From IMG/VR virus record IMGVR_UViG_3300030090_002184, positions 1 through 29,341 of that record: a DNA stretch of 29,341 nt, one strand, 5' to 3'. A model generated the notes under the pieces. The model worked only from the letters and a program-made list of their open reading frames with translations. It searched no databases and was not told where the DNA came from. Shown here one piece after another: positions 1,389 through 28,661 of the stretch; the first letter of the stretch is position 1; each line of letters opens with the position of its first letter. A program made the translations under genes and the position numbers. Origin of the DNA: a virus.

Positions 1389-1403
1389 TCTATTATAATA
1401 TAT
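1389..1403 (+). promoter_or_regulatory. Putative late promoter motif, copy 1
   Basis: The sequence TCTATTATAATATAT ends directly before the ATG at 1404. It is one of five copies of TCTATTATANKATAT found before morphogenesis genes. Its place in the short gap after terL suggests a promoter for the tail operon. The role is inferred. Confidence 0.6.
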
Positions 1404-2057
1404 ATGCAAATAAAACTAAAAAAAGGTAAGGACTCAAAATGGTATAGCATGCCTGATACATGGGATGAGCTATCATTAGACAAATATATGTCTGTAATGA
1501 GTTATTTAACTAATGAAAAAACTACAGACCATACTAGATTAGTAATGATGATACATCATCTTACAGATATACCTGAGCAGGATTTATGGAATATGACTAT
1601 ACCTGATTTAACACAAATAAATGAGGTAATGAAAGGCATGTTACAATCAGAGCCTAATCAGGAATTAAAACATATATTAAATATTAAAGGTAAAAAATAT
1701 GGATTTCATCCTAAATTAAAAAATGTAAGTTTAGGAGAGTTTGTAGATATAGAGATGTGTATTAAGGAGGGCATGTATGAAAATTTACATACATTATTAT
1801 CTATACTATATAGACCAATTATAGAGGAGGATGGAGATAAGTATATAATAGAGGATTATCAGCCCTCACAGGATAGGGCAAACCTATTTAGAGATAATCT
1901 AAAAGTAGAGGACATTAATGGTGCTAGTGTTTTTTTTTACGCTTTAGGAGCGCAACTCTTAGAAACTATGGCAGTATATTTGAAGGCGGAGACAATGAGG
2001 GAGAGGCTAGCGCTATTCAGAAAAAATGGGGATGGTATGAAACTATCTACAGACTAG
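1404..2057 (+). CDS. Tail assembly chaperone-like protein, short (in-frame) form
   Basis: This 217-residue soluble, mostly helical and charged protein opens the tail module. I recognise it from arrangement rather than from a catalytic motif. Its 3' end contains a slippery heptamer (A AAA AAT at 2021-2027), and the -1 frame from there stays open for another 50 codons to a stop at 2177-2179. That is how siphophages make the two forms of their tail assembly chaperone, like lambda gpG and gpGT, which coat the tape measure before tail-tube polymerisation. Here the gene lies about 7 kb upstream of the tape measure rather than beside it. The ATG immediately follows a late-type motif, so its mRNA could be nearly leaderless. 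Confidence 0.6.
   Translation: MQIKLKKGKDSKWYSMPDTWDELSLDKYMSVMSYLTNEKTTDHTRLVMMIHHLTDIPEQDLWNMTIPDLTQINEVMKGMLQSEPNQELKHILNIKGKKYGFHPKLKNVSLGEFVDIEMCIKEGMYENLHTLLSILYRPIIEEDGDKYIIEDYQPSQDRANLFRDNLKVEDINGASVFFYALGAQLLETMAVYLKAETMRERLALFRKNGDGMKLSTD
2021..2027 (+). promoter_or_regulatory. Programmed -1 ribosomal frameshift site
   Basis: Codons of the zero frame here read AGA AAA AAT, giving the canonical X XXY YYZ heptamer A AAA AAT, ten codons upstream of the zero-frame stop. Slipping back one base puts TGG GGA TGG next in frame. A modest 7-bp hairpin, 2042-2048 with 2059-2065 and one G.T pair, lies downstream and could act as a stimulator, though the 14-nt spacing is longer than usual. Confidence 0.7.
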
Positions 2058-2179
2058 CAGATGGTAAGGTAGATAAATTAGATGAGATTACAAAGATACC
2101 AGCCTTAGAGTGTTTTACATATATGGCATATCAATTAGATGTAAATAATGATAAGTCAGTAAATAGAGAAAATAATTAA
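2027..2179 (+). CDS. Tail assembly chaperone, frameshift extension (T-like domain)
   Basis: This 50-codon open stretch is in the -1 frame, has no good start codon at its head and fills the space between the zero-frame stop (2057) and the next gene (ATG at 2181). It begins WGWYETIYRLADG and continues with a DEIT and a FTYMAY stretch, which looks like real protein. Fused after K208 of the upstream ORF it would give a product of about 258 residues. The pattern matches the G-GT strategy of long-tailed phages. It would be missed by ordinary gene callers. Confidence 0.65.
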   Translation, partial: WGWYETIYRLADGKVDKLDEITKIPALECFTYMAYQLDVNNDKSVNRENN

Positions 2180-2180
2180 T

Positions 2181-2675
2181 ATGGGAATAAGATATAAAAC
2201 TTATAGCAATACATTAGATACCTTAGTATGTCTATTAGAGAGTCATGAGCAAATAGAGAAAGTAACTACAGGGGATTTATGGGATATAGACCTGGAGAAA
2301 AATAGTAAATATCCTCTAGCTCATGTAAATATAGGTAATGTAGATATTACAATGTCTCAAAAGACTTTTAATTTTCAGGTATTTATAATGGATATATCAG
2401 ATAATGATAATGAGCAATATGTATTAAATGATACTATGCATATTATGTCTGATCTTATAGCATTATTAAAACATGGAGAAAATACATATACTTATAATGC
2501 ACAACATGGAGAGGAGCCTAGATATTTTGTAGATAATGACTTTACATGTGAGCCATTTACAGAGAGATTTGATAATACGCTTACAGGATGGGTATGTGAT
2601 ATAAGGATAATTATAGAGTCTGTATTAGACTCATGTGATGTGCCTATAGATGATAGTGTAGTATGTATAAAATAA
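2181..2675 (+). CDS. Tail terminator-like protein
   Basis: This 164-residue protein has a mixed alpha/beta character and includes LWDIDLEKNSKYPLAHV near residues 33-49 and CEPFTERFDNTLTGW near residues 122-136. The overall pattern (short N-terminal helix, an 'FPLAHI'-type strand, and a late 'EPF..RF.N.L.GW' element) resembles small proteins of Bacteroidota siphophages that I take to be tail-terminator or tail-completion proteins. It starts just after the frameshift extension stop, so it is probably cotranscribed and coupled with the chaperone. The assignment rests on remembered resemblance and position; no enzyme motif is present. Confidence 0.45.
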   Translation: MGIRYKTYSNTLDTLVCLLESHEQIEKVTTGDLWDIDLEKNSKYPLAHVNIGNVDITMSQKTFNFQVFIMDISDNDNEQYVLNDTMHIMSDLIALLKHGENTYTYNAQHGEEPRYFVDNDFTCEPFTERFDNTLTGWVCDIRIIIESVLDSCDVPIDDSVVCIK

Positions 2676-2720
2676 GGATAGGGAAATTAACAATACAATT
2701 AATACCATTTAGGATACGAT

Positions 2721-3077
2721 ATGACTTATGATGAAATATTAGAAAAATTAGAGGAGATTAGTATTAGTCTAGAGTCTTATAATGACTATCCTCAGTCTGC
2801 TACTAATAATGCTAAAAGAGCTATTAAATATAAAAAAGAAAATGGTAGCTCATGCGGCACTAGAGTAGGATGGACCAGGGCAGGTCAATTAGCAAGGAGA
2901 GAGAAAATTAGTAGAGATACTATAGCAAGGATGGCATCATTTAAGAGACATGAAAAAAATAAAGATGTGCCATATACTGAGGGATGTGGAGGTCTAATGT
3001 GGGATGCCTGGGGAGGTAGCAGTGGTATAAATTGGGCTATAAGTAAATTAAAACAAATAGATAAAAATAAAAAATAA
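2721..3077 (+). CDS. Small phage head-morphogenesis-associated domain protein
   Basis: This 118-residue basic protein carries the sequence pattern RVGWTRAGQLARREKIS, then TIARMASFKRHE, then GGLMWDAWGGSSGINWA. The same order (a 'GVARARDLA' helix, a 'VRRM.SYF.RHE' helix and a glycine/tryptophan-rich 'AW.LWGGD.GR.WA' end) occurs at the C-terminus of other phage head or scaffold proteins or as a free-standing gene. The function is not established to my knowledge. Its location among neck and tail genes fits a structural or assembly role. A 45-nt gap without notable signals precedes it. Confidence 0.6.
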   Translation: MTYDEILEKLEEISISLESYNDYPQSATNNAKRAIKYKKENGSSCGTRVGWTRAGQLARREKISRDTIARMASFKRHEKNKDVPYTEGCGGLMWDAWGGSSGINWAISKLKQIDKNKK

Positions 3078-3082
3078 TAAAT

Positions 3083-4092: not shown

Positions 4093-4095
4093 TTT

Positions 4096-5547
4096 ATGAG
4101 CATAACAATAGAACAGAAACCAGCTAAAAGATTAATACCAGCAAACGCAAGAACTATATTTGTAGTAAAGGATGGATTTGCTGTAGCAAATAAAGTAAAA
4201 GTAAAATACATAGCTGAGGTATATATAGAAAAAAAATCAGCGGATATAACTACATCTATTAGTAATGGCACATTTAGGAGTAAATTAAAAGTTAGCCCTA
4301 ATGATGCAGGAGTAGGTATATTTGATTTTGGACCTATAATAGGTAATTATGTATCTCCTGAATATTTAGGAGGAGATGTGCATAATAGTAATACTACAAA
4401 TGGGAGTGAATATAATGGAGTGCAATACTCAGTTACAACTCCTCATAATATACATCAGGTAGATAAATATAGCACTAATAGGACTAGCTGTAGATACTTA
4501 AAAATTAAATTTAAGGTAGAATTTGCAAATAATATTACATCTCCTGTGCAGGAGGATACAGGTAATGATGTATCTACAGATGAATTTATTATGTATAATG
4601 GATATTTAGACAATACAGATATATTAAAATTAGGCTCAGGAGTAAGCGGTAATATTAGATATGACTTAGACTTTGCAAATTTGATAATGAATGATAGTAG
4701 CGGTAGATTTTTGACTAATGCGCCTATAGATAAACAATATGCAGATGTAAATGATTATATGACTATGGCATTTTTTGATCAGTATGAGGAGGATTATATA
4801 GTAGGAGGAGCAGGCTCTCATCCATCTATTAAAAAAATAGTATTTGTATTTTATTATAATGGTAGTCAAGTCTCTACAATTACTAGAAACAAGTCAGGAG
4901 CAAATGGAGGACATTACGGGCACATGACTGATAGTAATACTAAAATGCAATTTATAGGATGCGGACCTGGAAACATAGTAGGAGCAGGAGCATCATTACC
5001 AGCTAATTGGGATTACTATACTATTATAGCGTATAATGACTTAGACCAGGTAATTAGTAATACATATTATATATATTATCAGGCAGCAGATTGTAAATAT
5101 GGTAGCACTAGATTAACATGGCTAAATAAGTATGGAGCATGGGATTATTATAATTTTCAAAAGAAGTCAGTAAAATCATTTGCAGCTGATAGAGTTACTT
5201 ATACTCAACTAGAGGGCTCATGGAATGAGGAGAGATTTATACCGCACGGGCATTTAGGAGGTAAGAAAGCATATAAAAATAACATTACAGAAAATATTAC
5301 ATTAAATACTGATTTTATTACAGAGGATGAGGCTATATGGCTTGAGGAGTTATTTATTAGCACTGATGTATTTGTAATAAATCCTAGGTCTGCAGATGAT
5401 GCTAACCAGGGATACCTTAGAAAGTATGTAGAGCCTATTACAATATCATCAGGAGAGCATATTAGAAAATCTAGTGTAAATGATAAATTAGTGCAATATA
5501 CTTTTGAGATAACAAAGACATTAAATAGACAAACGCAAAGAGTATAA
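4096..5547 (+). CDS. Predicted distal tail or baseplate protein
   Basis: This 483-residue protein is strand-rich with many Asn, Gly, Thr and Tyr residues. The N-terminal 100 residues hold a strand pattern ending in GIFDFGPIIGNYVSPEYLGG. Similar 'G.FD...I..NYV' segments occur in uncharacterised tail proteins of Bacteroidota phages. The middle part is loop-rich, and a WLEELFIST stretch near residue 414 precedes a terminal beta region that may form a tube or hub contact. The next gene starts 2 nt after the stop. Its size and its place directly before the 924-residue tail protein suggest a tail-tip role. No enzymatic motif is seen. Confidence 0.55.
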   Translation: MSITIEQKPAKRLIPANARTIFVVKDGFAVANKVKVKYIAEVYIEKKSADITTSISNGTFRSKLKVSPNDAGVGIFDFGPIIGNYVSPEYLGGDVHNSNTTNGSEYNGVQYSVTTPHNIHQVDKYSTNRTSCRYLKIKFKVEFANNITSPVQEDTGNDVSTDEFIMYNGYLDNTDILKLGSGVSGNIRYDLDFANLIMNDSSGRFLTNAPIDKQYADVNDYMTMAFFDQYEEDYIVGGAGSHPSIKKIVFVFYYNGSQVSTITRNKSGANGGHYGHMTDSNTKMQFIGCGPGNIVGAGASLPANWDYYTIIAYNDLDQVISNTYYIYYQAADCKYGSTRLTWLNKYGAWDYYNFQKKSVKSFAADRVTYTQLEGSWNEERFIPHGHLGGKKAYKNNITENITLNTDFITEDEAIWLEELFISTDVFVINPRSADDANQGYLRKYVEPITISSGEHIRKSSVNDKLVQYTFEITKTLNRQTQRV

Positions 5548-5549
5548 TT

Positions 5550-9236: not shown

Positions 9237-11345
9237 ATGGCAAAAAGTGTAGTAGAGATAGAAATGAAAGCGCAAAAGGCGCAAAATACCTTAGGAGGGT
9301 TAATAGAGAGTCTAGGCTTTCTAAAAAATGCTATAGAGGATGTAGAATTAGGATCAGAGTCATTTAAGAGGCTAGCAGATGATATACAAAAGACTGAGAG
9401 TAAGATAAAAACTCTTACAAAACAAATGGAGGGATTAGAGCCTCAACAAAAAGCGGAGGCGTTTCTAAAAATGGGAGAGGGTATAGCAGGAGGATTTGTA
9501 GCCGCTCAGGGAGCTATGACTCTATTAGGGATAGAGAGTGAAAATCTAGAAAAAATACAGGCAAAAGTGCAGGGAGCTATAGCTATAGCAATGGGAGTAA
9601 GGATGATGGCTGAGGCGTCTTTACATGTAGTTACTGCAAAGCGTATAGTATTAGAAAAGGTAGCAATAGCTCAGACAAAAATGGGAGCAAAACTACACAA
9701 AATGGCAGCAGCCGCAGCAACTCTATACTCAGGAGCACTAAAATTGATAGGTATATCTGCTAATGTATCCTCTAAGGGTATGAAAACATTAAAGGTAGCT
9801 ATAGCCTCTACAGGTATTGGATTAATTGTAGTAGCTATAGGGACTCTAGTAGCTTATTGGGATGATATAAAAGGACTAGCATCAGGAGTATCATCAGAGA
9901 TGAGAGACCAGCTAGCATCTGCTACCGCAGCAAAGGAAGCCGCTATAGCAAATTTAGAAGCAACTGAGGGGAGCACAAATCAATTAAAATTAGCAGGTAA
10001 ATCTCAGAGAGAAATATTAGAGCTAAAAATGAAAGACATAGACGCCGCTATAGCAGCCTCAGAGGTAGAGATGGAGAGACAAAAATCTACAGCAAAAGCT
10101 CAAATAGCAGCAGCTAAAAGGAATGAAAAAATTGCTATGGGTATTATAGCAATGCTATCATCTCCTATTACTCTATTATTAGGTATGATAGACTCAGTTA
10201 CTTATGGACTATCTCAATTAGGAGTAATGGAAGCTACTACACTAACTGAGGATTATTTAAGAGGAGCAGCAAACTTAATAGGATTTGATGCATCAGAAAC
10301 TGAGGCAGAGATGGATGCAGAATTAGAGTCAATGGAGAAAGGTCTAAACGCTCTAAAAGAGAAGCGCGCAGGATTTGAATTAGAAATAATCGCAATAGAT
10401 AATGCCGCTAGTGATAAAAGGTCTGCAGCAGCTCAAAAAGCAAGAGAGGAGGAGCAGCAAAGATTAGAGAAATTTTTACAAGAGATGCAGGCTACTATGG
10501 AGGAGGCTCATTTAACTGCAGAGCAAAAAGAAATATTAGCAGTGCAGCGTAAATATGATGCCTTAATAGCAGAGGCTGAGCATTTTGGGATGAAGTCTGA
10601 GCAATTAGTAAAAGATAGAGAGGACGCTATAGCAAAAATAGAGGAGAGATACGCGCAAGAGAAGCAAGACAAAATCCAGGAGATTTTAGATTTTCAAACA
10701 GGAGTAAGAGAGATGGAGTTAATAGATGCAGAGAGAGAATTTGATAAAAAAATAGAGCAAGCTATAGAGCTAGGTATGGCTACAGAGGAATTAGAGAGAC
10801 TTAAGCTACTAAAATTAAAAGAAATAAGAGACGCTCATGAAGCTGAGGACATAGCCAAAACAAATGAAACTAGAGACGCTAAAATAGAGGCACAAACCGC
10901 CTTTGTAGATGCTGTAGGAGGAGCAATGGGAGAGATAAGTGGATTATTTGCTGAGGGTAGTAGAGCAAGTAAAGCGGCAGCACTAGCAGAAATAGCAATA
11001 AATACAGGATTAGGATTTATACAGGGATTAGATATTGCACAAAAATCTGCAAAGGCTACAGGACCAGGAGCAGCCTTAGCGTTTCCTATATTTTACGCTA
11101 CACAAATAGCAGCAGTAATAGGAGCTGTAAAAAAGGCAAAGTCAGCATTAGGAGCAGGAGGTGGCGCATCTCCTCCTCCACAACCAAAAAGCGTAAGCGC
11201 GCCATCTAGATCAGGAAACTTTACACTACAGGGAGGAGGAGGACCGCAGGGAACTCAGCCAGCATTAAAGGCATTTGTAGTAACTGATGAGATGACTGAT
11301 AGTCAGGACCAATTAGCTGATATTAGGAGGAGGAGCACATTATAA
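9237..11345 (+). CDS. Tail tape measure protein
   Basis: This 702-residue protein has long charged helices interrupted by hydrophobic stretches (near residues 85-130, 160-205, 295-320 and 560-620), and glutamate/lysine-rich coiled coil at about 380-550. The C-terminus is Gly/Pro-rich (GAGGGASPPPQPKS). Length, alanine richness, coiled coils and membrane-like segments are classic for tape measures, which set tail length and may help DNA delivery. By the usual scaling (about 1.5 A per residue) the tail would be near 100 nm. No sheath protein is seen, which supports a siphovirus-like particle. It ends 30 nt before the next gene's ATG, across a late-type motif. Confidence 0.9.
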   Translation: MAKSVVEIEMKAQKAQNTLGGLIESLGFLKNAIEDVELGSESFKRLADDIQKTESKIKTLTKQMEGLEPQQKAEAFLKMGEGIAGGFVAAQGAMTLLGIESENLEKIQAKVQGAIAIAMGVRMMAEASLHVVTAKRIVLEKVAIAQTKMGAKLHKMAAAAATLYSGALKLIGISANVSSKGMKTLKVAIASTGIGLIVVAIGTLVAYWDDIKGLASGVSSEMRDQLASATAAKEAAIANLEATEGSTNQLKLAGKSQREILELKMKDIDAAIAASEVEMERQKSTAKAQIAAAKRNEKIAMGIIAMLSSPITLLLGMIDSVTYGLSQLGVMEATTLTEDYLRGAANLIGFDASETEAEMDAELESMEKGLNALKEKRAGFELEIIAIDNAASDKRSAAAQKAREEEQQRLEKFLQEMQATMEEAHLTAEQKEILAVQRKYDALIAEAEHFGMKSEQLVKDREDAIAKIEERYAQEKQDKIQEILDFQTGVREMELIDAEREFDKKIEQAIELGMATEELERLKLLKLKEIRDAHEAEDIAKTNETRDAKIEAQTAFVDAVGGAMGEISGLFAEGSRASKAAALAEIAINTGLGFIQGLDIAQKSAKATGPGAALAFPIFYATQIAAVIGAVKKAKSALGAGGGASPPPQPKSVSAPSRSGNFTLQGGGGPQGTQPALKAFVVTDEMTDSQDQLADIRRRSTL

Positions 11346-11362
11346 AATAAATAATAAATAAA

Positions 11363-11377
11363 TCTATTATAAGATAT
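11363..11377 (+). promoter_or_regulatory. Putative late promoter motif, copy 2
   Basis: The sequence TCTATTATAAGATAT runs into the ATG of the protease gene at 11376; its last two bases are the AT of the start codon. It is the only copy with G at the K position. It follows the tape measure stop by 17 nt and could start a head-operon transcript. Confidence 0.6.
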
Positions 11378-12014
11378 GAAACCAAAAAAGAAAAAAAAGA
11401 AATATTTTGATATTGTAGAGCTAGTAATATCAGATGAAAATGAGGAGTTAGCGATTGATGCAATCAGTTTAGTCTCTGAGCCAGCCATTCAGGAGTCTGC
11501 AGTGTTTTTTAATAAACAAAAAAATAATTTAACATTGGCAAAAGAGACAAAAGAGGAGAGAGTATTAATATCCCCAGCCCTCATCCCTAATAAGCAAATT
11601 TATAGATACAATGCAGATGAGGATAAGGATTTTTATGTCTATTTTTCGGAAGCGACCATACGCCGCGCTAGTGAGATGTTCTTAAAATATCAAAACCAGC
11701 ATAAGGCTACCTATGAGCATGAGAGAGATATTGATGATGTATATGTAATGGAGTCATGGATTATAGAGGATACTAAAAAAGACAAATCTAATCTTTATGG
11801 ATTTTCTCTACCTAGAGGCACATGGATGGTAACTATGCGTATTAATAATGATTTTGCCTGGTCTGAGTTAAAATCAGGGAAACTTACAGGGCTAAGTATT
11901 GAAGGATTTTTTGTAAATGCTATGTCTAAATTATCTGAGCAAAAATACACTGATGAGCAAGTATTAGAAACTCTAGCAGAAATACTAAAAATACAGCCAA
12001 AATCAAATAAGTAA
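11376..12014 (+). CDS. Prohead protease, XkdF-like (peptidase S78_2 type)
   Basis: This 212-residue protein is a likely capsid maturation protease of the XkdF family. After a lysine-run N-terminus it shows ELAIDAISLVSEPAIQE (residues 24-40), then VLISPALIPNKQIYR (63-77), and the conserved core with H115 (TYEHE) and S174 (GLSIEGFF). Those are the candidate catalytic His and Ser of the herpes-assemblin-like fold. It would cut scaffold and possibly capsid termini inside the prohead. It lies directly upstream of the scaffold and the major capsid genes, the usual order. Starts further upstream are excluded by the short gap to the tape measure stop. Confidence 0.85.
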   Translation: MKPKKKKKKYFDIVELVISDENEELAIDAISLVSEPAIQESAVFFNKQKNNLTLAKETKEERVLISPALIPNKQIYRYNADEDKDFYVYFSEATIRRASEMFLKYQNQHKATYEHERDIDDVYVMESWIIEDTKKDKSNLYGFSLPRGTWMVTMRINNDFAWSELKSGKLTGLSIEGFFVNAMSKLSEQKYTDEQVLETLAEILKIQPKSNK

Positions 12015-12022
12015 AAAAATAA

Positions 12023-12037
12023 TCTATTATACTATAT
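12023..12037 (+). promoter_or_regulatory. Putative late promoter motif, copy 3
   Basis: The sequence TCTATTATACTATAT lies 8 nt after the protease stop. Unlike the other four copies it is set back from the gene: its first base is 32 nt before the scaffold ATG at 12055. The variable distance argues for a promoter rather than a ribosome-binding element. Confidence 0.6.
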
Positions 12038-12054
12038 AAAAATAATTAAAGACC

Positions 12055-12795
12055 ATGGATATTAAAAAACAAATTTTACACGCTCTAGGACTATCTGCAG
12101 AGGTAGTGAATTTAGAGTATCAAAACAAATTAGAGGATGGCACAATTATAGTATCTACAGCTGATAAATTAGAGGCGGGAGTAGATATTAGCGTCCTTAC
12201 AGAGGATGGTAGCACTATGCCTCTAGCAATTGGAGAGTATATTACAGCTGATGGAGAGACAATTTCAGTTACTGAGGAGGGTATTGTAGCAGAGGTATCT
12301 GCAGCAGAAACTACTGAGGAGGAAACTGAGGAAGTAGAAGCGAAAAAAGAGGATGATAAAAAGAAGTATGAGGAAGCGCCAGCAGAGGAAGTAGTAGAGG
12401 AGGTAATTGATGAAGTAGGAGGAGCTGTAGCTGAGGTAGCAGCAGCAATTGATGATGCTACAGGAGAGGAAGTTACTCCTGAGGTAGCAGAGCAAGCAGC
12501 AGAGATAGCAGTAGCAATTATAGAGGAGAAAGTAGAGGAGGTAGCAATGGCAAAACACATTAGAGTCATTTTAGAAGCTACTAAAAAGGAATTAACTAGC
12601 TTAAAATCTCAATTAAAAAAGACTGAGGATAAGGTAAAAGAATTATCTGAGTCTCCAGCTACAAATGGTATAGAATTAAATAAATTTAGCAATAACAGAT
12701 CAGGAGGAGTGCAGGAATTATCTCCAGCTGAGTATCATAAATTAGATGCAAAGGGTAGATATTGGTATAATTTATCTTTAAGAAAAAATAAGTAA
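12055..12795 (+). CDS. Capsid scaffolding protein candidate
   Basis: This 246-residue protein is very acidic in the middle (residues 75-180 are dominated by Glu, Val and Ala) with a predicted coiled coil at about 165-200 (EATKKELTSLKSQLKKTEDK) and a short basic end. The first 70 residues contain small beta-like repeats (KLEDGTIIVSTADKLEAG). Size, acidity, coiled coil and its position between protease and major capsid protein fit an internal scaffold that guides prohead assembly and is later cleaved. The C-terminal YWYNLSLRKNK could be the capsid-binding tail. I infer function from context and composition. Confidence 0.7.
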   Translation: MDIKKQILHALGLSAEVVNLEYQNKLEDGTIIVSTADKLEAGVDISVLTEDGSTMPLAIGEYITADGETISVTEEGIVAEVSAAETTEEETEEVEAKKEDDKKKYEEAPAEEVVEEVIDEVGGAVAEVAAAIDDATGEEVTPEVAEQAAEIAVAIIEEKVEEVAMAKHIRVILEATKKELTSLKSQLKKTEDKVKELSESPATNGIELNKFSNNRSGGVQELSPAEYHKLDAKGRYWYNLSLRKNK

Positions 12796-12825
12796 TAATA
12801 ATAATAATATAAAAAAACAGAAATT

Positions 12826-13752
12826 ATGGGATTTGGAACAATTAACAGCAATTACTCAGGAGAGCATGCGGGGCAGTATATAGCAAGTGCCTTAAATGCA
12901 ACAAAATCATTAGAGTATTTGACTCTATTAGAAAATGTAAAATATAAGCGTAATATTACAAAGGTTAGCTCTAGCGGACTTATTGTAGATGCATCATGTA
13001 ATTTTGATGAGGCAGGAACTCTTACTTTGGAGGAACGAGTTTTACAACCTGAGGCGCTACAAATTAACCTAGATTTGTGTGCAGTTAGCCTTTTGGCTGA
13101 TTGGCAGGCGGCTAAGATGAAAGCAGGGCAGCACAATAATGGATTAGCAGATGATTTTGCAGCATTTGTAGTATCTTACTTATCTGATGTAATATCAGAC
13201 CATGTAGAGACTAAAATTTGGCAAGGTAACATCTCAGGATCAGGAGAATTTACAGGATTTATGGGGCTTGATGGAAACGGGCATTTTGAGAATGATACAG
13301 CAATTGTAGAGGCAGACAACTCAGGAGGTGCAGGAACTGCATTTACATCTACTAATATAGATGAGAATTTAGGAATTATCTCAGCAGCTATACCAGCAGC
13401 GGTATGGGGCAAAGAGGATTTATTTATCTACATGAGCACAGCTACATATAGATTATACATCCAAAATATGGCAGATGCAGGATATGCTAACTTATACTCT
13501 ATGACTGATACTTTTGTGCCTATGTATAATGGTATTAAATTAGCAGTATGCCCTGGTATGAGAGACAACAAAATGTGTGCAGGTCAAAAGTCAAATTTAT
13601 TCTTTGGAACTGATTTAGTATCAGACCATGGACCAGCCTTAAAATTGCTAGATATGTCTGAAATTGATGGAAGCTCAAATATTAGAGTAGTAGCTAAGTT
13701 TAGTGGTGGAACTCAGCACGCTCAGGGTGGAGATATTGTTAGATTAGACTAA
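12826..13752 (+). CDS. Major capsid protein
   Basis: This 308-residue protein follows the scaffold gene and has the traits of an HK97-fold capsid subunit: a helical N-arm, a long helix (LADWQAAKMKAGQHN near residues 90-104), a glycine-rich loop (SGSGEFTGFMGLDGNG near 136-151), and a strand-rich C-terminal half ending IRVVAKFSGGTQHAQGGDIVRLD. The leader is A/T-rich with a run of AAT triplets, typical of strong Bacteroidota translation starts. Length is at the lower end for the family. It belongs to the unit that ends at the terminator at 14409-14435. Confidence 0.88.
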   Translation: MGFGTINSNYSGEHAGQYIASALNATKSLEYLTLLENVKYKRNITKVSSSGLIVDASCNFDEAGTLTLEERVLQPEALQINLDLCAVSLLADWQAAKMKAGQHNNGLADDFAAFVVSYLSDVISDHVETKIWQGNISGSGEFTGFMGLDGNGHFENDTAIVEADNSGGAGTAFTSTNIDENLGIISAAIPAAVWGKEDLFIYMSTATYRLYIQNMADAGYANLYSMTDTFVPMYNGIKLAVCPGMRDNKMCAGQKSNLFFGTDLVSDHGPALKLLDMSEIDGSSNIRVVAKFSGGTQHAQGGDIVRLD

Positions 13753-13794
13753 TAATATAAAAAAATCAATTATTAATTAAAAAAAATCAAAGAC

Positions 13795-14358
13795 ATGGCA
13801 TGTGAATTAACAAAAGGGCGTAACATAGGATGTAGAGACTCAGTAGGAGGTGTAAAAGCAGTATATTTTGCACAACATAGTGAGCTCACAGGATATGTAG
13901 CAGCCTCAGGAGAGCTGACTGACTTTGACTTAGGTAGTGGAGATGATATTTATAAGTATTTAGTAAAGCGTGGCACGGCAGGAGTTACAGAGACCATAAA
14001 CGCCAACAGCGAGAATGGAACTATTTTCTATACTCAATCAGTAAATATCAAATTACACAAATTGACTAAGGAGGACCAGAATCAGATAAAATTATTAGGT
14101 CAGCAAAGATTAATTATCTTTGTAGAGCTTAATGAGCTAAATAGCGCAGGTAAAAATATAGTTTTAGCATGCGGATTAGACAATGGATGTGAATTATCAG
14201 CGGGAACTAATGTCTCAGGTGTAGCATTAGGAGATATGAATGGATACGATTGGACTTTTGAATCTCAGGAGCCTAATCCTATGCAAGTAGTAGCAGATTA
14301 TACTACATCGCCATTAGATAACTCAGCATTTACATATCAGGGATTAGTATTATCATAA
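13795..14358 (+). CDS. Major tail tube protein candidate
   Basis: This 187-residue protein starts MACELTKGRNIGCRDSVGG and has alternating strands with one helical turn, and a tail-tube-like stretch YDWTFESQEPNPMQVVADYT near residues 151-170. It is encoded directly after the capsid gene and directly before the strong terminator, so it should be among the most abundant mRNAs, as expected for the tail tube. The start GR-N-I-GC-R-D-S-x-GG is a pattern I associate with structural proteins of Bacteroidota phages. A head-decoration role is the main alternative. Confidence 0.5.
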   Translation: MACELTKGRNIGCRDSVGGVKAVYFAQHSELTGYVAASGELTDFDLGSGDDIYKYLVKRGTAGVTETINANSENGTIFYTQSVNIKLHKLTKEDQNQIKLLGQQRLIIFVELNELNSAGKNIVLACGLDNGCELSAGTNVSGVALGDMNGYDWTFESQEPNPMQVVADYTTSPLDNSAFTYQGLVLS

Positions 14359-14408
14359 ATACTATTTTTATATATATGTGTTTAGTAGTTTAGTTTTAAG
14401 TTAAAATT

Positions 14409-14435
14409 AGGAGGGTATTTAGCCCTCCTTTTTTT
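14409..14435 (+). terminator. Rho-independent terminator after the capsid unit
   Basis: AGGAGGG (14409-14415) pairs perfectly with CCCTCCT (14423-14429) around a 7-nt loop and is followed by T30-T35, a run of seven T counting the last paired base. It is by far the clearest GC-rich hairpin in the window. It separates the capsid/tail-tube unit from the next genes. Confidence 0.9.
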
Positions 14436-14457
14436 ATAATATTAAAAAATATCAATT

Positions 14458-14634
14458 ATGTATAAATTAAAAAAAGAATATCAGGGAGTAGATTTACATA
14501 CAAAAGGAGGTATAATTAGGCTTGATCTAGTAAAGTCTGATGAGGTAGAATTAAAGGGATTAGAAAAATATTTTACAAAATCTACTAAGCCTAAAAAGCC
14601 TAAAAAGACTGATATTATAGGAGGTAAGCTCTAG
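14458..14634 (+). CDS. Small basic phage protein (58 aa), unknown
   Basis: This 58-residue ORF starts at an ATG preceded by an A/T-rich leader and ends 34 nt before the next late-type motif. It begins MYKLKKEYQGVDLHTKGG, has a short acidic centre and then a lysine-rich tail (KSTKPKKPKKTD). Small proteins of this size are often found next to capsid genes and may be connector pieces, but I cannot assign a function. It sits between a strong terminator and a promoter-like motif, so it would be expressed only by readthrough or from a signal I do not see. Confidence 0.55.
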   Translation: MYKLKKEYQGVDLHTKGGIIRLDLVKSDEVELKGLEKYFTKSTKPKKPKKTDIIGGKL

Positions 14635-14668
14635 ATATTAACAAAATCCAAAATAAATAGGTAATATT

Positions 14669-14683
14669 TCTATTATACTATAT
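14669..14683 (+). promoter_or_regulatory. Putative late promoter motif, copy 4
   Basis: The sequence TCTATTATACTATAT runs into the ATG at 14682. It is identical to copy 3. It stands downstream of the terminator at 14409-14435, exactly where transcription would have to start again, which is the best contextual support for a promoter role. Confidence 0.65.
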
Positions 14684-15158
14684 GATAAATGGAATTTACG
14701 GGCAGACTATACAGGCTAAAATAAGTGTAGAGGAGTCTAGAATTAATACAGCAGTAGCTCAGGCTAATATAAAATACCTAGCTAAATTTACACATGATAC
14801 AACTAAGGATGTAAAATACTGCTATCCTCATTTATCAGCAAAAACAGATAGGAGTATTACATTTGCAATAGCTCATAGTAGCACTGAAAATCTTTTTAAT
14901 GGTATATTAAATTTTAAGCCTTATGGATTTTGGACTTATGAAATATATGAGGTATCATGGATAGGCACTATGACTCTTACATCATCTACAGCGCCAGAAA
15001 CTGAGACCGAGGTATTAGCAGTAAATAATAATAATGGAGTAGTGCAGGGATTAGTGCATAGAGGTAAAATGAAAATTCAGGAAACAATAGGAAGTGAGCA
15101 GGTAATATATACAGAAACATCAGAAACAGCAACAACAAATTATTTATATACAGATTAA
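14682..15158 (+). CDS. Predicted minor structural protein
   Basis: This 158-residue protein begins MINGIYGQTIQAKISVEESR and is strand-rich and tryptophan/tyrosine-containing in the middle (YGFWTYEIYEVSWIG near residues 85-99). I see no catalytic motif. It opens the unit that leads to the portal, and its ATG overlaps a late-type motif. It could be a head-fibre, decoration or neck protein. I do not recognise the family with certainty. Confidence 0.5.
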   Translation: MINGIYGQTIQAKISVEESRINTAVAQANIKYLAKFTHDTTKDVKYCYPHLSAKTDRSITFAIAHSSTENLFNGILNFKPYGFWTYEIYEVSWIGTMTLTSSTAPETETEVLAVNNNNGVVQGLVHRGKMKIQETIGSEQVIYTETSETATTNYLYTD

Positions 15159-15172
15159 AAAATTAAAAAATT

Positions 15173-15451
15173 ATGGGAGATACAATACAAGAGTTATTAG
15201 CAGAGCAATTAGGTAAGGGAGGAGTAGAGATAGTAGTATCAGGCACAGGTGCAGTAACAGGTAAGGACTGCTATGCGGTGCATTTTCCTATACAGAGTGT
15301 AGTTACTAATTTAGATACTGGCACTGCTGTAAGCGGAACTGATACAAATTTACATCAGACTTATCCAGCGGGCACTACACTATATCTATCTTTTACAGCT
15401 ATTACAATTAGCTCAGGATTAGCATTAATATACAAAAATGATACTCTATAA
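15173..15451 (+). CDS. Small predicted virion protein, unknown
   Basis: This 92-residue protein begins MGDTIQELLAEQLGKGGVEI and has strand-forming segments separated by glycine and threonine turns. It ends with a stop that overlaps the ATG of the LamG-like gene at 15451 (TAATG). That coupling suggests that the two proteins act together, for example as base and head of a capsid decoration, but this is inference. It has no recognisable motif. Confidence 0.45.
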   Translation: MGDTIQELLAEQLGKGGVEIVVSGTGAVTGKDCYAVHFPIQSVVTNLDTGTAVSGTDTNLHQTYPAGTTLYLSFTAITISSGLALIYKNDTL

Positions 15452-16161
15452 TGAGATTAAGCAGTAATAATATTTGGAATCCTACAAAGGATAGCCCTAT
15501 ATTTCATTTAGTCTATAATACAGGATTATTATTAGGAGAGACAGGCTTAGTATCTAAATGGAATGATAATTTATCAGGCTCTACTAAATTTTGGGGGCAA
15601 ACTACAGACTCATATAAGCCTCAATTTGTAGCAGATGGAGCTAAAACAGCATCATTACAATTTGATGGCACAGATAATTGGATTACAGGGGATCAGCTTA
15701 CTATATCTGATGAGTTTTGTGTAGGTATGAAATTTGTAATAAATACTACTGCTACTAATGATGTAATATGGGGAGATACTACAAATGGTAATACTGACTC
15801 ATGGCTTAGGATAAATGATACTAATACTATAGGTATAAAAACCTCAGGGAGTCAAAAGACAATAGATATTGATGAGGCTAGTAGATTTAATACTGCTACA
15901 TTACATCATATAGTAATATGTAGAAATAGCTCAGACTTAGTAGAGGTATGGGTAGATGGAGCAAAGCAGACTAATACAGCAACCTCAGCAGGAGATTTAG
16001 AGATAGATAGTATAGGAGCTAGAGGAGGTAGTAGCGCGCCTACTAATTTCTTTAATGGTAATATATTTGAGTTTGTAGCTTACAATAAGCAGTCTGATGA
16101 ATTAGCTAAAAACCTATCAGAGCATCTAATGAGTATAGAAGTAGAGGGAGGATTAGGATAA
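15451..16161 (+). CDS. LamG/concanavalin-like decoration or adhesin protein
   Basis: This 236-residue protein contains a laminin-G-like beta-sandwich: SLQFDGTDNWITGDQL at about residues 68-83, a strand series with 'FCVGMKFVINT', then HHIVICRNSSDLVEVWVDGAKQ near 151-172 and a closing NGNIFEFVAYNKQ. 'LQFDGTDNW' plus 'V.VDG..Q' and 'G.I.E...Y' is the signature of LamG_3-type concanavalin folds. Such domains bind glycans and often decorate phage heads or tails. It is translationally coupled to the preceding 92-residue gene. Its exact ligand and location on the virion are unknown. Confidence 0.75.
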   Translation: MRLSSNNIWNPTKDSPIFHLVYNTGLLLGETGLVSKWNDNLSGSTKFWGQTTDSYKPQFVADGAKTASLQFDGTDNWITGDQLTISDEFCVGMKFVINTTATNDVIWGDTTNGNTDSWLRINDTNTIGIKTSGSQKTIDIDEASRFNTATLHHIVICRNSSDLVEVWVDGAKQTNTATSAGDLEIDSIGARGGSSAPTNFFNGNIFEFVAYNKQSDELAKNLSEHLMSIEVEGGLG

Positions 16162-20421: not shown

Positions 20422-20481
20422 ATAAATCTATATAATTAGTCTATTACTACATAAAACATCTTAAATCTAATATTATATATT

Positions 20482-20542
20482 GTTAATAACTTTTGTTAAT
20501 AACTTTGATAATAATTATGTTAATAATTGTGTTAATCAAAAA
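20482..20542. repeat. 12-13-bp iteron or operator array, set B
   Basis: Five successive units begin at 20482, 20495, 20507, 20519 and 20531. They are GTTAATAAC, GTTAATAAC, GATAATAAT, GTTAATAAT and GTTAATCAA, each plus 3-4 AT-rich bases. The array covers the -33 region of the promoter and ends 7 bp before its -7 element. It may be an operator array or iterons of the replication origin. Confidence 0.6.
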
Positions 20543-20557
20543 TATATTGTAAATTTG
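20527..20557 (+). promoter_or_regulatory. Early promoter of Bacteroidota type
   Basis: TTG at 20527-20529 is followed after 20 bp by TAAATTTG (20550-20557), matching the Bacteroidota consensus TTG-N17-23-TAnnTTTG. Transcription would begin near 20562-20566, giving a leader of about 20 nt before the ATG at 20585. It should drive the whole early operon with host RNA polymerase. Confidence 0.75.
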
Positions 20558-21360: not shown

Positions 21361-21411
21361 TATAGGTTAATGATACAGCCTTAAATGTATCTAAATATTA
21401 AAATTAATAAA

Positions 21412-21882: not shown

Positions 21883-21884
21883 TT

Positions 21885-22436
21885 ATGAGGAAATACATTA
21901 GACATGATAAAAATAGAGTTACTGATGTAGATGAGGTAGAGAAAATGGTAATCATAGCTGAGAAGCTATGTAACCTACCTCCTCAGTCATTGTCTAGGAA
22001 AGTAAGAACGCAAAATATTTTATTACCTAGGATGGTAGTAAGTAATATAGCTAGATATGAGAGAGGCATACATTATGAAACTATAGCAGAAGTATTAGAC
22101 CATGATAGATGCAGTGTATATCATTATGAAAAAACGCACGAGCAAAACTATCAATATTGGTCTGAGTATAGAAATTTATTTAATGAGATTGTAATTGCAA
22201 TATCAGACCATAAAAAGACTAAAAATGTAGATATTAAAGACAATACAGAGTTAAAAAATTTCATATTAAAAAATGGTAGTATTGTAGAAAATAAAGCAGG
22301 CAAGGTATTTATTACTATTAAGCTTAATGATTTGCATACAGATATACAGACAAATTATAGAGATTTTAGTAATACATTAAATAGAGTGCAATATTGTCTA
22401 AATGAGTATGATGCTAAAATAGATATAAGACTATGA
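21885..22436 (+). CDS. DnaA domain IV-like DNA-binding protein
   Basis: This 183-residue protein has, at about residues 18-92, a helix-turn-helix pattern like the C-terminal domain of DnaA: a first helix ending in LCNLPPQSL, then RKVRTQNILLPRMVVSNIARY, and HYETIAEVLDHDRCSVYHYEK. The DRCSVYH part occupies the place of the DnaA signature 'DHTTVLHA'. There is no AAA+ ATPase domain, so it is a DNA-binding module alone. Its neighbours are an SSB-like protein and a replisome-organiser-like protein. A role as origin-binding initiator or regulator is probable, with the repeats at 20386-20542 as possible targets. Confidence 0.65.
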   Translation: MRKYIRHDKNRVTDVDEVEKMVIIAEKLCNLPPQSLSRKVRTQNILLPRMVVSNIARYERGIHYETIAEVLDHDRCSVYHYEKTHEQNYQYWSEYRNLFNEIVIAISDHKKTKNVDIKDNTELKNFILKNGSIVENKAGKVFITIKLNDLHTDIQTNYRDFSNTLNRVQYCLNEYDAKIDIRL

Positions 22437-24052: not shown

Positions 24053-24073
24053 TATTAATTAATAACTAAAACT

Positions 24074-25544: not shown

Positions 25545-25597
25545 TAAATAATTACAATCTCACATTAAATGATACTAATTATTTATAATATTTGTGC

Positions 25598-25957
25598 ATG
25601 ACTACAAAGCCAATATACGCATCTATGGAGCATGAGGTATTAATAGAGGCATATTTAGACGCTATTTGTAGAAATATAAGAGAGGTAGTAGAGATAGATA
25701 AGTATAAGGATTTTATAGATGTATCTAATTTTATTATTGATTATCATAATGAATATAGTAAAAATAAAGATACAGGTAATTGGCATGATTTTTTAATGAT
25801 AATACCTCTACAAATGTCCGCTATGATAACAGGATTATTAATAGGAGTAGAGAATAAAGACAATACAATATCATTAAGGATACATAGAGAATTATTAGGG
25901 CAGTTTAGTCTAAAAGTAATGGAGGATTTACAAAAGATAAAGCCTGTTAATGAATGA
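25598..25957 (+). CDS. Unknown early/middle protein (119 aa)
   Basis: This 119-residue protein runs from the ATG at 25598; a TTG six bases earlier is in frame but is part of a TTTG string and is unlikely as a start. It begins MTTKPIYASMEHEVLIEAYL and is helical and acidic, with a hydrophobic helix near residues 65-83 (FLMIIPLQMSAMITGLLIGV). I do not recognise it. It lies immediately before the sigma-like gene and overlaps its start by 8 nt, so the two are coupled and may work together, for example as regulator and sigma factor. That is inference. Confidence 0.55.
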   Translation: MTTKPIYASMEHEVLIEAYLDAICRNIREVVEIDKYKDFIDVSNFIIDYHNEYSKNKDTGNWHDFLMIIPLQMSAMITGLLIGVENKDNTISLRIHRELLGQFSLKVMEDLQKIKPVNE

Positions 25958-26528
25958 GATATATAATATATTAGCTACACTGAGAGACGCCTACATAGGT
26001 ATAGCTCTACAATTTACCAATAAAAAGTATGAAGCTGAGGACGCTGTGCAGGAATTATATATATATTTACTAAATATGAATAAAGAGACATTACAAAAAA
26101 TATATAAATCTGATGGTAAAATTGGATTAATAAGATATGGAGCTGTAGCTCTTAGGAGGTCATTTACAAGCCCTAGGAGTAAATTTTATTATGTATATAA
26201 AAAATATAATAAAAATATAGATGATAGTGGAAACATAGTGAGAGAGGATGTAAAGTCTGATGATGTATCAGCTCATAATAAAAAGAGAGTTAATAATATG
26301 GTATATGAAACTAGCCAGACAGAGACATGGGAGTATTTTGAGAAAATAGATAAGGAGCTAGATAAAATGTATTGGTATGATAGGGATGTATATAAACTAT
26401 ATTACAATGTAGAAAAAAAAGAGACATTAGATAGTCTAGCTAAAAAAACTAAAATAAGCCGTAATAGTTTATTTACTACTCTAGACAATGTAAGGAAACA
26501 TCTTAAAAAAGTATTATCAGATGAGTAA
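25950..26528 (+). CDS. Sigma-70-like transcription factor
   Basis: This 192-residue protein has two parts typical of small sigma factors. Residues of about 10-45 (IALQFTNKKYEAEDAVQELY) resemble region 2, with the acidic 'AEDAVQE' that contacts core RNA polymerase. Residues of about 137-188 (LDSLAKKTKISRNSLFTTLD) form a helix-turn-helix like region 4, which reads promoters. The sequence between is short and charged. It is encoded in the early/middle operon, before the structural genes, as expected for a phage factor that redirects RNA polymerase to late promoters. The five TCTATTATANKATAT sites are its best target candidates. Confidence 0.7.
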   Translation: MNEIYNILATLRDAYIGIALQFTNKKYEAEDAVQELYIYLLNMNKETLQKIYKSDGKIGLIRYGAVALRRSFTSPRSKFYYVYKKYNKNIDDSGNIVREDVKSDDVSAHNKKRVNNMVYETSQTETWEYFEKIDKELDKMYWYDRDVYKLYYNVEKKETLDSLAKKTKISRNSLFTTLDNVRKHLKKVLSDE

Positions 26529-27371: not shown

Positions 27372-27372
27372 T

Positions 27373-27585: not shown

Positions 27586-27772
27586 TTGGAAAGGAGCGGG
27601 TAGAAAAAAGACCAGGGTAGAGAAAAAATCTATAATTGTAGATGGTAAAATAGTAATGCCTGAAATAATTAGAGATGATATAGGATGGGAGTTACAAATG
27701 GGATGGCAGTATAAAGATGAAATACAAGAGAGAAGTTATTTAACACAAAAAAAGACGCCATGGAATGTATAA
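27572..27772 (+). CDS. Small basic protein (66 aa), unknown
   Basis: This 66-residue protein begins MKKNNWKGAGRKKTRVEKKS, a strongly basic stretch of the 'GAGRK' type that often precedes nucleic-acid-binding parts in small phage proteins. The second half is mixed and ends TQKKTPWNV. It overlaps both neighbours by about 13 nt, which is common in this cluster of small early genes. Function is unknown. Confidence 0.5.
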   Translation: MKKNNWKGAGRKKTRVEKKSIIVDGKIVMPEIIRDDIGWELQMGWQYKDEIQERSYLTQKKTPWNV

Positions 27773-27927
27773 TATTAATGGGAGTAGGTATTGTAATAGG
27801 TATATATATAGCTACACAAATAGAGAGAGGGATAAGTATGCGTATAAATAATAATAAACTATTAAAAAACCTTAAAGACTATGAAATACAAGAATATAAA
27901 AAAGATACTAAAAAATCAAATAAATAA
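27760..27927 (+). CDS. Small membrane protein (55 aa)
   Basis: This 55-residue ORF begins with a hydrophobic helix (MECIILMGVGIVIGIYIATQ) followed by a charged tail of 35 residues rich in Lys, Asn and Asp. The layout is that of a single-span protein with a cytoplasmic tail. It overlaps the preceding gene by 13 nt and the following one by 47 nt in another frame. It is not recognised. Confidence 0.5.
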   Translation: MECIILMGVGIVIGIYIATQIERGISMRINNNKLLKNLKDYEIQEYKKDTKKSNK

Positions 27928-28054
27928 GAAAATTAGAGCTCTTTGGACTTTTGATGAAAATAGTAAAACATTTACACATCTATATCATATACCTACAAAT
28001 GATTTAAGAATATACACGCCTGAGCAATTATTAGAATATCTAGAAAAAATATAA
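27881..28054 (+). CDS. Small unknown protein (57 aa)
   Basis: This 57-residue ORF begins MKYKNIKKILKNQINKKIRA, then LWTFDENSKTFTHLYHIPTN, and ends with a helix (PEQLLEYLEKI). It overlaps the previous ORF in another frame by 47 nt, and its last base is the first base of the next ATG. The second half looks like genuine folded protein, the first half is lysine-rich. Function is unknown. Confidence 0.5.
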   Translation: MKYKNIKKILKNQINKKIRALWTFDENSKTFTHLYHIPTNDLRIYTPEQLLEYLEKI

Positions 28055-28179
28055 TGACTGAATTTATTAGACATATATTTGGATTTTGTGGAGAGCCGCA
28101 TCCTAATATATTTACTATAATTTTAGGCACTCCTACAATAGGATATATATTATACAAAATAAGAAAATATAAAAAATGA
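28054..28179 (+). CDS. Small membrane protein (41 aa)
   Basis: This 41-residue ORF starts MTEFIRHIFGFCGEPHPNIF and has a hydrophobic segment FTIILGTPTIGYILYKI with a basic end (RKYKK). The GFCGEPHPN element before a short span is a pattern I recall from small proteins of other phages. Start and stop overlap both neighbours (TAATG and ATGA), supporting translation. Role unknown, perhaps at the cell membrane. Confidence 0.6.
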   Translation: MTEFIRHIFGFCGEPHPNIFTIILGTPTIGYILYKIRKYKK

Positions 28180-28415
28180 AATTTGTATGTAATATATGCG
28201 GTAATACTACTGATCTGTATAAGGTAAAATTTACATCAGTAAATAATAAGTTAGTTTGTAAAGACGCTTACTGCTGTGAGGAGTATATGGAGCAAGTAAT
28301 TACAGATGAGTATAAAGGGATGCCAGATATACATAGAGATACAGATGATACGCAGCATAGTAATCCTATGAAAGTATGGGATAAATATAAATCCGATTAT
28401 GCAGAGAAGCCATAA
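28176..28415 (+). CDS. Small zinc-ribbon protein (79 aa)
   Basis: This 79-residue protein begins MKFVCNICGNTTDLYKVKFT with C5-x2-C8, followed by C28, C33 and C34 (LVCKDAYCCEEYMEQV). It looks like a zinc ribbon with an acidic, disordered tail (DIHRDTDDTQHSNP). Comparable 'CGN..DL.K....' ribbons are frequent in phage early regions. It may modulate transcription or other DNA processes. Its end overlaps the next gene by 17 nt. Confidence 0.55.
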   Translation: MKFVCNICGNTTDLYKVKFTSVNNKLVCKDAYCCEEYMEQVITDEYKGMPDIHRDTDDTQHSNPMKVWDKYKSDYAEKP

Positions 28416-28641
28416 ACAAAATAATTATTATTGGAAGTGTATAGTTAAAATCCTTAGCAGTGAGCTAGGCTATTATCCTCATGAGATACATGATTTACTA
28501 AAAAGGGAGTTTATGATAGAGGATACTAAGACAATGGATAGGAGAGAATTTAATGACTATATAGAGCAGATAAGGATATGGAGCCAGACCGAATTAGGTA
28601 TATTATTACCTACTCCTGAGGACTTAAAAAATAAAATGTAA
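28399..28641 (+). CDS. Last early gene, NinB-like C-terminal-type helical protein
   Basis: This 80-residue protein begins MQRSHKQNNYYWKCIVKILS, then LGYYPHEIHDLLKREFM, and REFNDYIEQIRIWSQTELGI ending LLPTPEDLKNKM. The order 'YY...V......G....E.H..LK..F', 'EF..Y...I..W....L...LP.P' is found in phage proteins related to the C-terminal part of NinB-type recombination proteins, but the N-terminal part is absent, so I call only similarity. It lies next to the late promoter motif before the small terminase. Confidence 0.55.
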   Translation: MQRSHKQNNYYWKCIVKILSSELGYYPHEIHDLLKREFMIEDTKTMDRREFNDYIEQIRIWSQTELGILLPTPEDLKNKM

Positions 28642-28646
28642 AAAAT

Positions 28647-28661
28647 TCTATTATATTATAT
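28647..28661 (+). promoter_or_regulatory. Putative late promoter motif, copy 5
   Basis: The sequence TCTATTATATTATAT runs into the ATG of the small terminase at 28660. It stands 5 nt after the last early gene, at the junction from early to late genes. Confidence 0.65.

Follow-up and report, generated by a model that had tools for sequence, protein, structure and literature searches.

The virus record IMGVR_UViG_3300030090_002184 of IMG/VR, a 29.3-kb stretch of DNA from a small marine phage (29,341 nucleotides, hereafter the window), carries five copies of a 15-base motif, TCTATTATANKATAT, ahead of morphogenesis genes. Comparison with related viruses makes it highly probable that the five sites are late promoters of the form [AC]AA[AC]TAA-N12-TCTATTATAnnATA, read by the host core RNA polymerase (RNAP) together with a phage-encoded sigma factor of the extracytoplasmic function (ECF) type, the predicted product of open reading frame (ORF) 25950–26528. 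The sites, the fixed spacing of their two parts, the sigma fold, and the co-occurrence of sites and sigma gene emerged from the comparison itself. In the scheme that we infer, a host-type promoter at 20527–20557 would start the early operon holding the sigma gene, and the phage sigma would then open five promoters, those of the terminase, tail-chaperone, protease, and scaffold genes and of ORF 14682; recognition of the sites by this sigma, the timing, and the exact first transcribed base all belong to this scheme.

The motif starts at positions 1389, 11363, 12023, 14669, and 28647, always on the plus strand; there was no copy on the minus strand and none of the reversed pattern. A first-pass annotation, made from the letters of the window, had described five copies confined to the coding strand, with 13 of 15 positions invariant, ahead of the tail-chaperone gene, the protease gene, the scaffold position, ORF 14682, and the terminase small subunit gene, and all of this was confirmed. 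The exact pattern is present five times, against a mean of 0.003 per dinucleotide shuffle (300 shuffles), and the largest family of 15-mers agreeing at 13 of 15 positions had four members in the shuffles (in two of them), never the five seen in the window. All five copies lie in noncoding DNA, three of them reaching two bases into an ATG. When three mismatches were allowed, 71 matches were found against 74.1 by chance, i.e., no excess over shuffles; thus, only the full motif, or better its two-part form, carries the signal. An unbiased motif search of the upstream regions of the window ranked the same motif first (five sites, none in the background). The host-type sequence TAnnTTTG is absent between −80 and +20 of each of the five site starts, again as had been noted. 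The copy at 14669 had been placed directly after a terminator, which proved incorrect: an ORF of 58 amino acids (14458–14634) stands between the two.

The 15-base motif forms the downstream part of a bipartite promoter, whose second element, [AC]AA[AC]TAA, stands at a fixed distance upstream. After alignment of the relatives' sites on TATTATA, this element falls 15 to 21 bases upstream. Across 30 sites in 9 relatives, positions −20, −19, and −16 are A in 30/30 and position −17 is T in 26/30. In the five window sites, the seven-column block contains five invariant columns, which none of 20,000 random draws equaled. A matrix of both parts was built from the 30 sites of the 9 relatives, with the window and its two nearest relatives, G002 and G003, excluded. 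Applied to both strands of the window, it ranked the five sites first to fifth (scores in Table 1), the next match reaching 9.8 bits; on G003, the five sites of that genome likewise took the first five ranks (25.6 to 12.2 bits, next 5.9). The anchor columns of the matrix were fixed by construction and the upstream half was not, and neither half by itself gave this separation. The upstream spacing is constant while the distance to the ATG varies, and so the unit is the two-part element rather than the start codon. The upstream element and the sigma gene go beyond the first-pass account; together with the fixed spacing, they back its proposal of a common late promoter recognized by a non-housekeeping factor, which, as judged from sequence, would appear to hold. 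The best non-promoter match of the matrix (9.8 bits) lies at 4847–4852 on the plus strand, in a TATTAT stretch within ORF 4096–5547, and is likely a coincidence.

In loci of 80 relatives, exact copies of the motif number 23 forward and 0 reverse, and they stand at the same genes. A leave-one-out matrix scan of 12 genomes gave 49 hits of at least 11 bits, all on the plus strand; 47 of them were called noncoding. One of the two exceptions overlaps the preceding ORF under our ORF calls, and the other is located 513 bases upstream of the terminase gene. Tail-chaperone, protease, scaffold, ORF 14682, or terminase genes follow 47 of the 49 (the hit at 513 bases included), and the remaining two precede unassigned ORFs 1.4–1.5 kb past the sigma gene (G013 and G018). 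No hit fell within 10 kb upstream of the sigma gene, among the early-type genes, in the scanned genomes having that gene. At the tail-chaperone site of 50 phages with motif types A and A', AAAC[TG]A[AT] occupies exactly positions −21 to −15 in 50/50; the ATG is offset from the start of TATTATA (or its counterpart) by 11 bases in 34 of these phages, by 13 in 11, and by 12, 16, 17, 19, and 21 in one each.

By fold and family, the 192-residue product of ORF 25950–26528 is probably a two-domain ECF-type sigma factor and the likely reader of the five sites. The assignment was made because of NCBIfam, PHROGs, and fold matches. The NCBIfam family sigma70-ECF (TIGR02937) aligns with nearly the whole length of the window protein (E 1.2e-6). 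Of the 18 orthologues in the alignment, 16 match this family at E ≤ 0.01, with a best value of 2.8e-10; individual PHROGs sigma families match up to 4 of the 18. Region 2 is detected in the window protein by Pfam Sigma70_r2 (E 0.0092, below the Pfam cutoff), and the region 4 helix-turn-helix by Sigma70_r4_2 in 4/18 orthologues (best 7.6e-5). In the structural model, the 192 residues form two helical domains joined by a low-confidence linker (85–124); regions 1.1 and 3 would thus be absent, as is typical of ECF sigmas. The best solved Foldseek match is ECF sigma L (6dv9_F, probability 1.00), and all 50 matches listed are sigma factors or transcription complexes by title. VIA alignment along the length of the model to sigmaE (1or7_B) gave Z 10.2 and a root-mean-square deviation (rmsd) of 10.1 over 142 residues, and model residues 122–192 were superimposed on sigmaE region 4 (2h27_A) with Z 9.7 and rmsd 2.6 over 69 residues.

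The sigma gene was searched for in 35 of the 80 relatives' records, chosen by size, and was found in 28, including 25/25 of those of at least 23,989 bases; the seven records without it are 13.5 to 21.1 kb long (at most 21,086 bases). At least 583 coding stretches in IMG/VR belong to this family. In a tblastn search of a phage collection, neither the window sigma nor a member from a second clade had a match at E 0.01, and a third family member had one weak match, the rpoD of a Microcystis phage (E 4e-3). Among 75 contigs fetched via the sigma gene alone, two of them contigs of metagenome-assembled genomes (MAGs), a tail-chaperone gene was found on 37, and in 36 it is preceded by a type A or A' site; the 37th, on contig L244, has a TATATATAC-like site. 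Contigs L170 and L171 bear the sigma gene together with the tail-chaperone promoter; they are deposited as MAGs of Pseudooceanicola and Euryarchaeota but look like wrongly binned phage contigs.

Two-part sites with rigid spacing are the kind read by ECF sigmas, and the solved promoter of the M. tuberculosis ECF sigma H has the form GGAACA-N17-GTT (PMC6411747). The tail-chaperone site of the window, TAAACT-N17-ATT, has equal spacing. Sigma residues 76–77 follow the motif class, being RS in 43/43 phages of type A, KN in 6/6 of type A', and TS or NS in 15/15 others; the classes for types B to E come from string rules written after the sites had been inspected. In a tree test, 64/64 rows agreed, with four changes in each character and only two independent well-supported pairs, which leaves the test no power; L244 was classed by eye after the rule had returned a question mark, and fragment G007 was omitted. 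The association is suggestive only. In what we take to be the register of E. coli sigmaE, these residues lie after the 2.4 helix, and we claim no contact; on the same ground, their assignment to ECF loop L3 was dropped. L244 offers a natural test case for the matching of sigma and promoter: its sigma groups within the type A branch, yet residues 76–77 are NS and the −10 element is of the form described above.

We found that each phage tends to repeat its own version of the motif. Its tail-chaperone core matched the region upstream of its own scaffold gene at 11.12 of 14 positions on average, against 9.64 after permutation (24 genomes; 0/9999 permutations as high). Corresponding values were 12.58 against 10.63 at ORF 14682 (12 genomes, 0/1999) and 9.21 against 8.62 at the protease gene (24 genomes, 0/1999). 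In twelve other genes, eleven gave nothing clear, including the terminase small subunit gene (176/1999; its site is present only in some phages), and the phosphatase gene gave a weak effect (29/1999). The repetition of one version upstream of unlinked genes argues for a trans-acting reader that differs between phages. The divergence of the tail-chaperone motif also correlates with that of the sigma (r 0.465, 24 genomes); conditioned on each of 21 other genes in turn, the correlation stays significant (p ≤ 0.02) for 20 of them. No correlation was seen with capsid gene distance (0.039). This test covered 24/29 genomes, G002, G032, G034, G007, and G019 having been dropped as near-copies, fragments, or genomes with no sigma, and the sigma ORF starts of G015, G016, G020, G023, and G028 are truncated in it. 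The test at the scaffold site covered 15/24 genomes, with a 50-base upstream window.

Several results weigh against the phage sigma as the reader of these sites. The ECF-like AAC is confined to the tail-chaperone promoter, and AAA takes its place in the four remaining window sites. A de novo search genome by genome had, by our reading, the motif or a variant among the two listed families in 12/31 genomes and other, mostly A-rich, families in the rest. The own-motif match at the scaffold gene was below 11 of 14 in 9/24 genomes; in three of these (G005, G012, and G018) the site was cut off by the 50-base window, and in six (G008, G015, G016, G020, G026, and G028) it is truly weak. The window sigma scores below the curated NCBIfam cutoff (28.3 bits against 42.9 for TIGR02937) and below the Pfam cutoffs. 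Its model has a mean predicted local distance difference test (pLDDT) score of 72.9 and a predicted template-modeling (pTM) score of 0.44. The best Foldseek E value is 2.3e-3, with a whole-chain TM score of 0.31 and rmsd 22.5; VIA Z scores near 10 are in the middling range for helical proteins; and phmmer and profile searches of PDB sequences returned no sigma factor. In the distance tests with the tail-chaperone motif, correlations higher than that of the sigma on the same genomes were obtained for the tail-chaperone gene (0.486 against 0.465), ORF 3535 (0.485 against 0.459), and ORF 21885 (0.635 against 0.479, 18 genomes), and the sigma correlation is not significant given ORF 21885. At the scaffold site, 6/9 other genes exceed the sigma, whose correlation is not significant given the portal gene or ORF 21885. 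The distance tests therefore favor a phage-borne reader without naming the sigma, and the sigma is named because of its fold, the spacing of the sites, and its presence in these phages.

The same tests raise the question whether the decisive factor at these late promoters could be another phage DNA-binding protein, such as the product of ORF 21885–22436, acting as an activator with host sigma. The divergence of this ORF tracks that of the motif more closely than sigma divergence does (r 0.635 in 18 genomes at the tail-chaperone site, 0.724 in 13 at the scaffold site), the sigma correlation losing significance in both tests once it is taken into account, and its product weakly resembles the DnaA DNA-binding domain (Pfam Bac_DnaA_C, E 0.0019, 18.6 bits against a cutoff of 31.5). 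However, it was found in 22/31 genomes, against 28 for the sigma (at E 1e-3; some of the rest are fragments), host-type TAnnTTTG is lacking at the five sites, and their rigid two-part form is of the type targeted by ECF sigmas (PMC6411747). We consider this arrangement very unlikely. About as unlikely, in our estimation, is recognition of the sites by an alternative sigma of the host, in which case the phage sigma would act at other promoters or disturb host transcription. Flavobacteria do have several ECF sigmas, seven in F. psychrophilum (PMC9723704). Yet the −10 half varies between phage clades and agrees between unlinked sites within a phage, a pattern that differing hosts could mimic, and the phage sigma is present in every searched record of 23,989 bases or more.

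The proximity of the sites to start codons has consequences for the predicted transcripts. The ATG lies 11 bases past the start of TATTATA at the protease gene, ORF 14682, and the terminase gene, and 13 bases past it at the tail-chaperone gene; the register of sigma H puts the first transcribed base at 12. Predicted starts fall on the ATG or within two bases of it at 4/5 window sites. At the protease gene, ORF 14682, and the terminase gene, transcription is predicted to begin, to within one base, at the A of the ATG, and predicted leaders are 0–2 nucleotides at the tail-chaperone gene and about 19 nucleotides at the scaffold gene, before the ATG at 12055. In 12 scaffold sites without an abutting ATG (several of them near-copies, picked by position from 23 matches with no ATG that include matches inside genes), position 10 is T and position 11 is A in 12/12, as if base 11 were the initiating A. 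Leaderless mRNAs make up 5.5% of those examined in F. psychrophilum (PMC9723704), and phage transcripts are often leaderless according to a remark in PMC5312081; together, these reports make the predicted arrangement uncommon but not unheard-of.

A motif that ends at or in the ATG at most sites might alternatively be a translation signal around the start codon, which we regard as extremely improbable. Its spacing to the upstream element is fixed and that to the ATG variable, and at the scaffold gene TATTATA starts 24–47 bases ahead of the ATG (leave-one-out scan). Moreover, genes with a site have A less often at upstream positions where A is described as favoring initiation in Flavobacterium (PMC6847099): 9/59 against 325/610 at −6, 14/59 against 401/610 at −12, and 11/59 against 330/610 at −13, and slightly less often at −3 (30/59 against 392/610, p 0.048). 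In these counts, the motif itself occupies the bases concerned, and the 59 genes were picked by pattern, nine of them lying outside the five ortholog positions. Chance repetition in an AT-rich genome, to which the abundance of loose matches might point, is excluded by the shuffle statistics of the full motif and by its strand-specific copies at the same genes in relatives.

For the group as a whole, we see an even chance that a widespread set of marine flavophage-like viruses relies for late transcription on sigma-specific promoters that are fused to start codons, with much of the late regulon leaderless, and that the sigma and the −10 element drift as a matched pair, residues 76–77 changing with the upstream end of the −10 element (RS with CTATT, KN with CCTTT, TS or NS with TATATTT).

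The early genes appear to have a promoter of another type. With the host promoter consensus of PMC6847099, a site upstream of the first early-type ORF was identified (Table 1) that is likely, on sequence grounds, to be the early promoter of the sigma operon; similar sites lie 12–42 nucleotides upstream of the next gene in several relatives. The same loose pattern is also frequent within genes and on the minus strand: in 31 genomes, its matches numbered 19 noncoding and 49 coding on the plus strand, and 11 noncoding and 125 coding on the minus strand. A second host-type match, TTG-N17-TAACTTTG, is present at 20480–20507, 85 bases upstream of ORF 20585, within repeated TTAATAA.

Table 1. Positions of the proposed promoters and of associated genes and signals in the window.
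Feature	Positions	Strand	Description
Late promoter 1	1370–1403	+	AAACTAA 1370–1376; motif 1389–1403; predicted +1 about 1402; ATG 1404; 24.8 bits, rank 2
Late promoter 2	11344–11377	+	AAAATAA 11344–11350; motif 11363–11377; predicted +1 about 11376, the A of the protease ATG; 21.3 bits, rank 3
Late promoter 3	12004–12037	+	CAAATAA 12004–12010; motif 12023–12037; predicted +1 about 12036; 20.8 bits, rank 4
Late promoter 4	14650–14683	+	AAAATAA 14650–14656; motif 14669–14683; predicted +1 about 14682, the A of the ATG; 19.6 bits, rank 5
Late promoter 5	28628–28661	+	AAAATAA 28628–28634; motif 28647–28661; predicted +1 about 28660, the A of the terminase small subunit ATG; 27.8 bits, rank 1
ECF-type sigma factor (putative)	25950–26528	+	192 amino acids; region 2 about 3–85, region 4 about 124–190; proposed reader of the five promoters
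Host-type promoter-like site	20527–20557	+	TTG-N20-TAAATTTG; 35 nucleotides upstream of the first early-type ORF (20585); proposed early promoter
Tail-chaperone-like ORF	1404–2057	+	Pfam Phage_TAC_7 E 0.0025 (below cutoff); PHROGs tail protein 2.9e-5; its ATG directly follows promoter 1
XkdF-type phage serine protease	11376–12014	+	Pfam 1.2e-15; start codon begins within motif 2
Scaffold-position ORF	12055–12795	+	Precedes the major capsid gene
ORF 14682	14682–15158	+	No PHROGs match; "minor structural gene" in the first-pass annotation; start codon begins within motif 4
Terminase small subunit	28660–29019	+	PHROGs 1.5e-8; start codon begins within motif 5
Terminator-like hairpin, then T run	14409–14429	+	240 bases upstream of motif 4

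All 44 called ORFs of the window are on one strand. Judged by gene content, early-type genes extend from 20585 to about 28641 and are followed, round the circle, by terminase, tail, protease, scaffold, capsid, and portal genes. The GC content per kb is 27–39%, and the noncoding share is 6.2% with our ORF calls. In the stretch scanned for terminators, eight terminator-like sites were found against 6.9 expected, the hairpin of Table 1 having the longest stem among the eight. The ends of the window form a repeat of 379 bases (1–379 and 28963–29341), 376 of them identical; the three differences mean that the ends derive from slightly different copies, and the viral population may be non-clonal there. 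The closest phages in the annotated collection are the Nonlabens phages P12024S and P12024L (capsid 23%, portal 35%), and megablast of positions 10000–16000 against phages gave no match.

A phage-encoded sigma with two-part late promoters is of a kind already known from phage 7-11, whose sigma SaPh711_gp47 uses bipartite late promoters GTAAtg-(16)-aCTA, with late starts determined by primer extension and promoter activity demonstrated in vitro (PMC8948821). The two systems would share a sigma with region 4, two-part promoters ahead of late genes, and, if the host-type site of the window is indeed an early promoter, early genes with host-type promoters, from which the sigma is presumably first made. 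They differ in promoter sequence and in phage group, the window being a 29-kb genome akin to Nonlabens phages; in the window, moreover, the sigma gene precedes the first late promoter as part of an early-type operon, and the promoters, here predicted from sequence, run into the ATG. Like gp36 of phiEco32, a phage-encoded sigma that serves middle and late promoters in several parts of the genome (PMC8948821), the window sigma would act at scattered promoters; the phiEco32 promoter, however, is described as a single element, tAATGTAtA, and its sigma as having no region 4, whereas the window has two elements and region 4. The spacing of M. tuberculosis sigma H promoters (PMC6411747) recurs in the tail-chaperone site of the window and in the AAAACA-N17-GTT of P12024S, although sigma H, unlike the window protein, is a cellular sigma and AAA replaces AAC at four of the five window sites.

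P12024S offers a cultured parallel. Its gp33 (L252:20595–21074), annotated in its deposit as hypothetical, with sigma-70 region 2 mentioned in a note, is encoded shortly before the terminase gene. It matches ECF-type families below their cutoffs (best 5.7e-8) and its hhalign alignment with the window sigma family is confined to 47 columns of region 2 (E 2e-5, probability 77%). The top upstream motif of P12024S is TTTTCCGTTAATAT (five sites, one in the background). Seven of its 11 forward CGTTA[AC]T sites precede genes, with AAAC 21 (six sites) or 20 (one) bases upstream and an ATG at 12 (six) or 11 (one), which mostly gives AAAACA-N17-GTT. The other four forward sites have neither AAAC nor ATG at those offsets, and the ten reverse sites have no AAAC at 20 or 21. 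The combination AAAC-N17-CGTTA[AC]T occurs six times forward, always followed by an ATG, and never in reverse, against an expectation of 0.023 per random first-order sequence (largest count 1 in 300). P12024S thus resembles the window in the position of an ECF-type sigma gene just ahead of that for the terminase, in the AAAC upstream of the −10 element, and in the abutting ATG, and differs in the −10 sequence and in sigma kinship limited to region 2 columns.

T4 gp55 is a small phage sigma-family protein for late promoters that consist of TATAAATA only, with no known −35 element, and are coupled to the sliding clamp. In contrast to this −10-only system, whose sigma is not known to have region 4, the window system has a −35-like element, present upstream in 50/50 tail-chaperone sites, and region 4 in the sigma model.

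Literature searches found no earlier description of the present system, which leaves it possible that one has been published; as far as these searches show, what is new lies in the pairing of sigma and promoter, in the form of the promoter, in the phage group, and in the geometry at the start codon. The authors of PMC8948821 had predicted further phage sigma–promoter pairs. Phage sigmas are known, but few such pairs have been read, and here several promoter versions are matched to sigma versions. The related P12024S is in culture on a Nonlabens host, and promoter recognition, the switch from early to late transcription, and leaderless translation in Bacteroidetes are thus directly testable.

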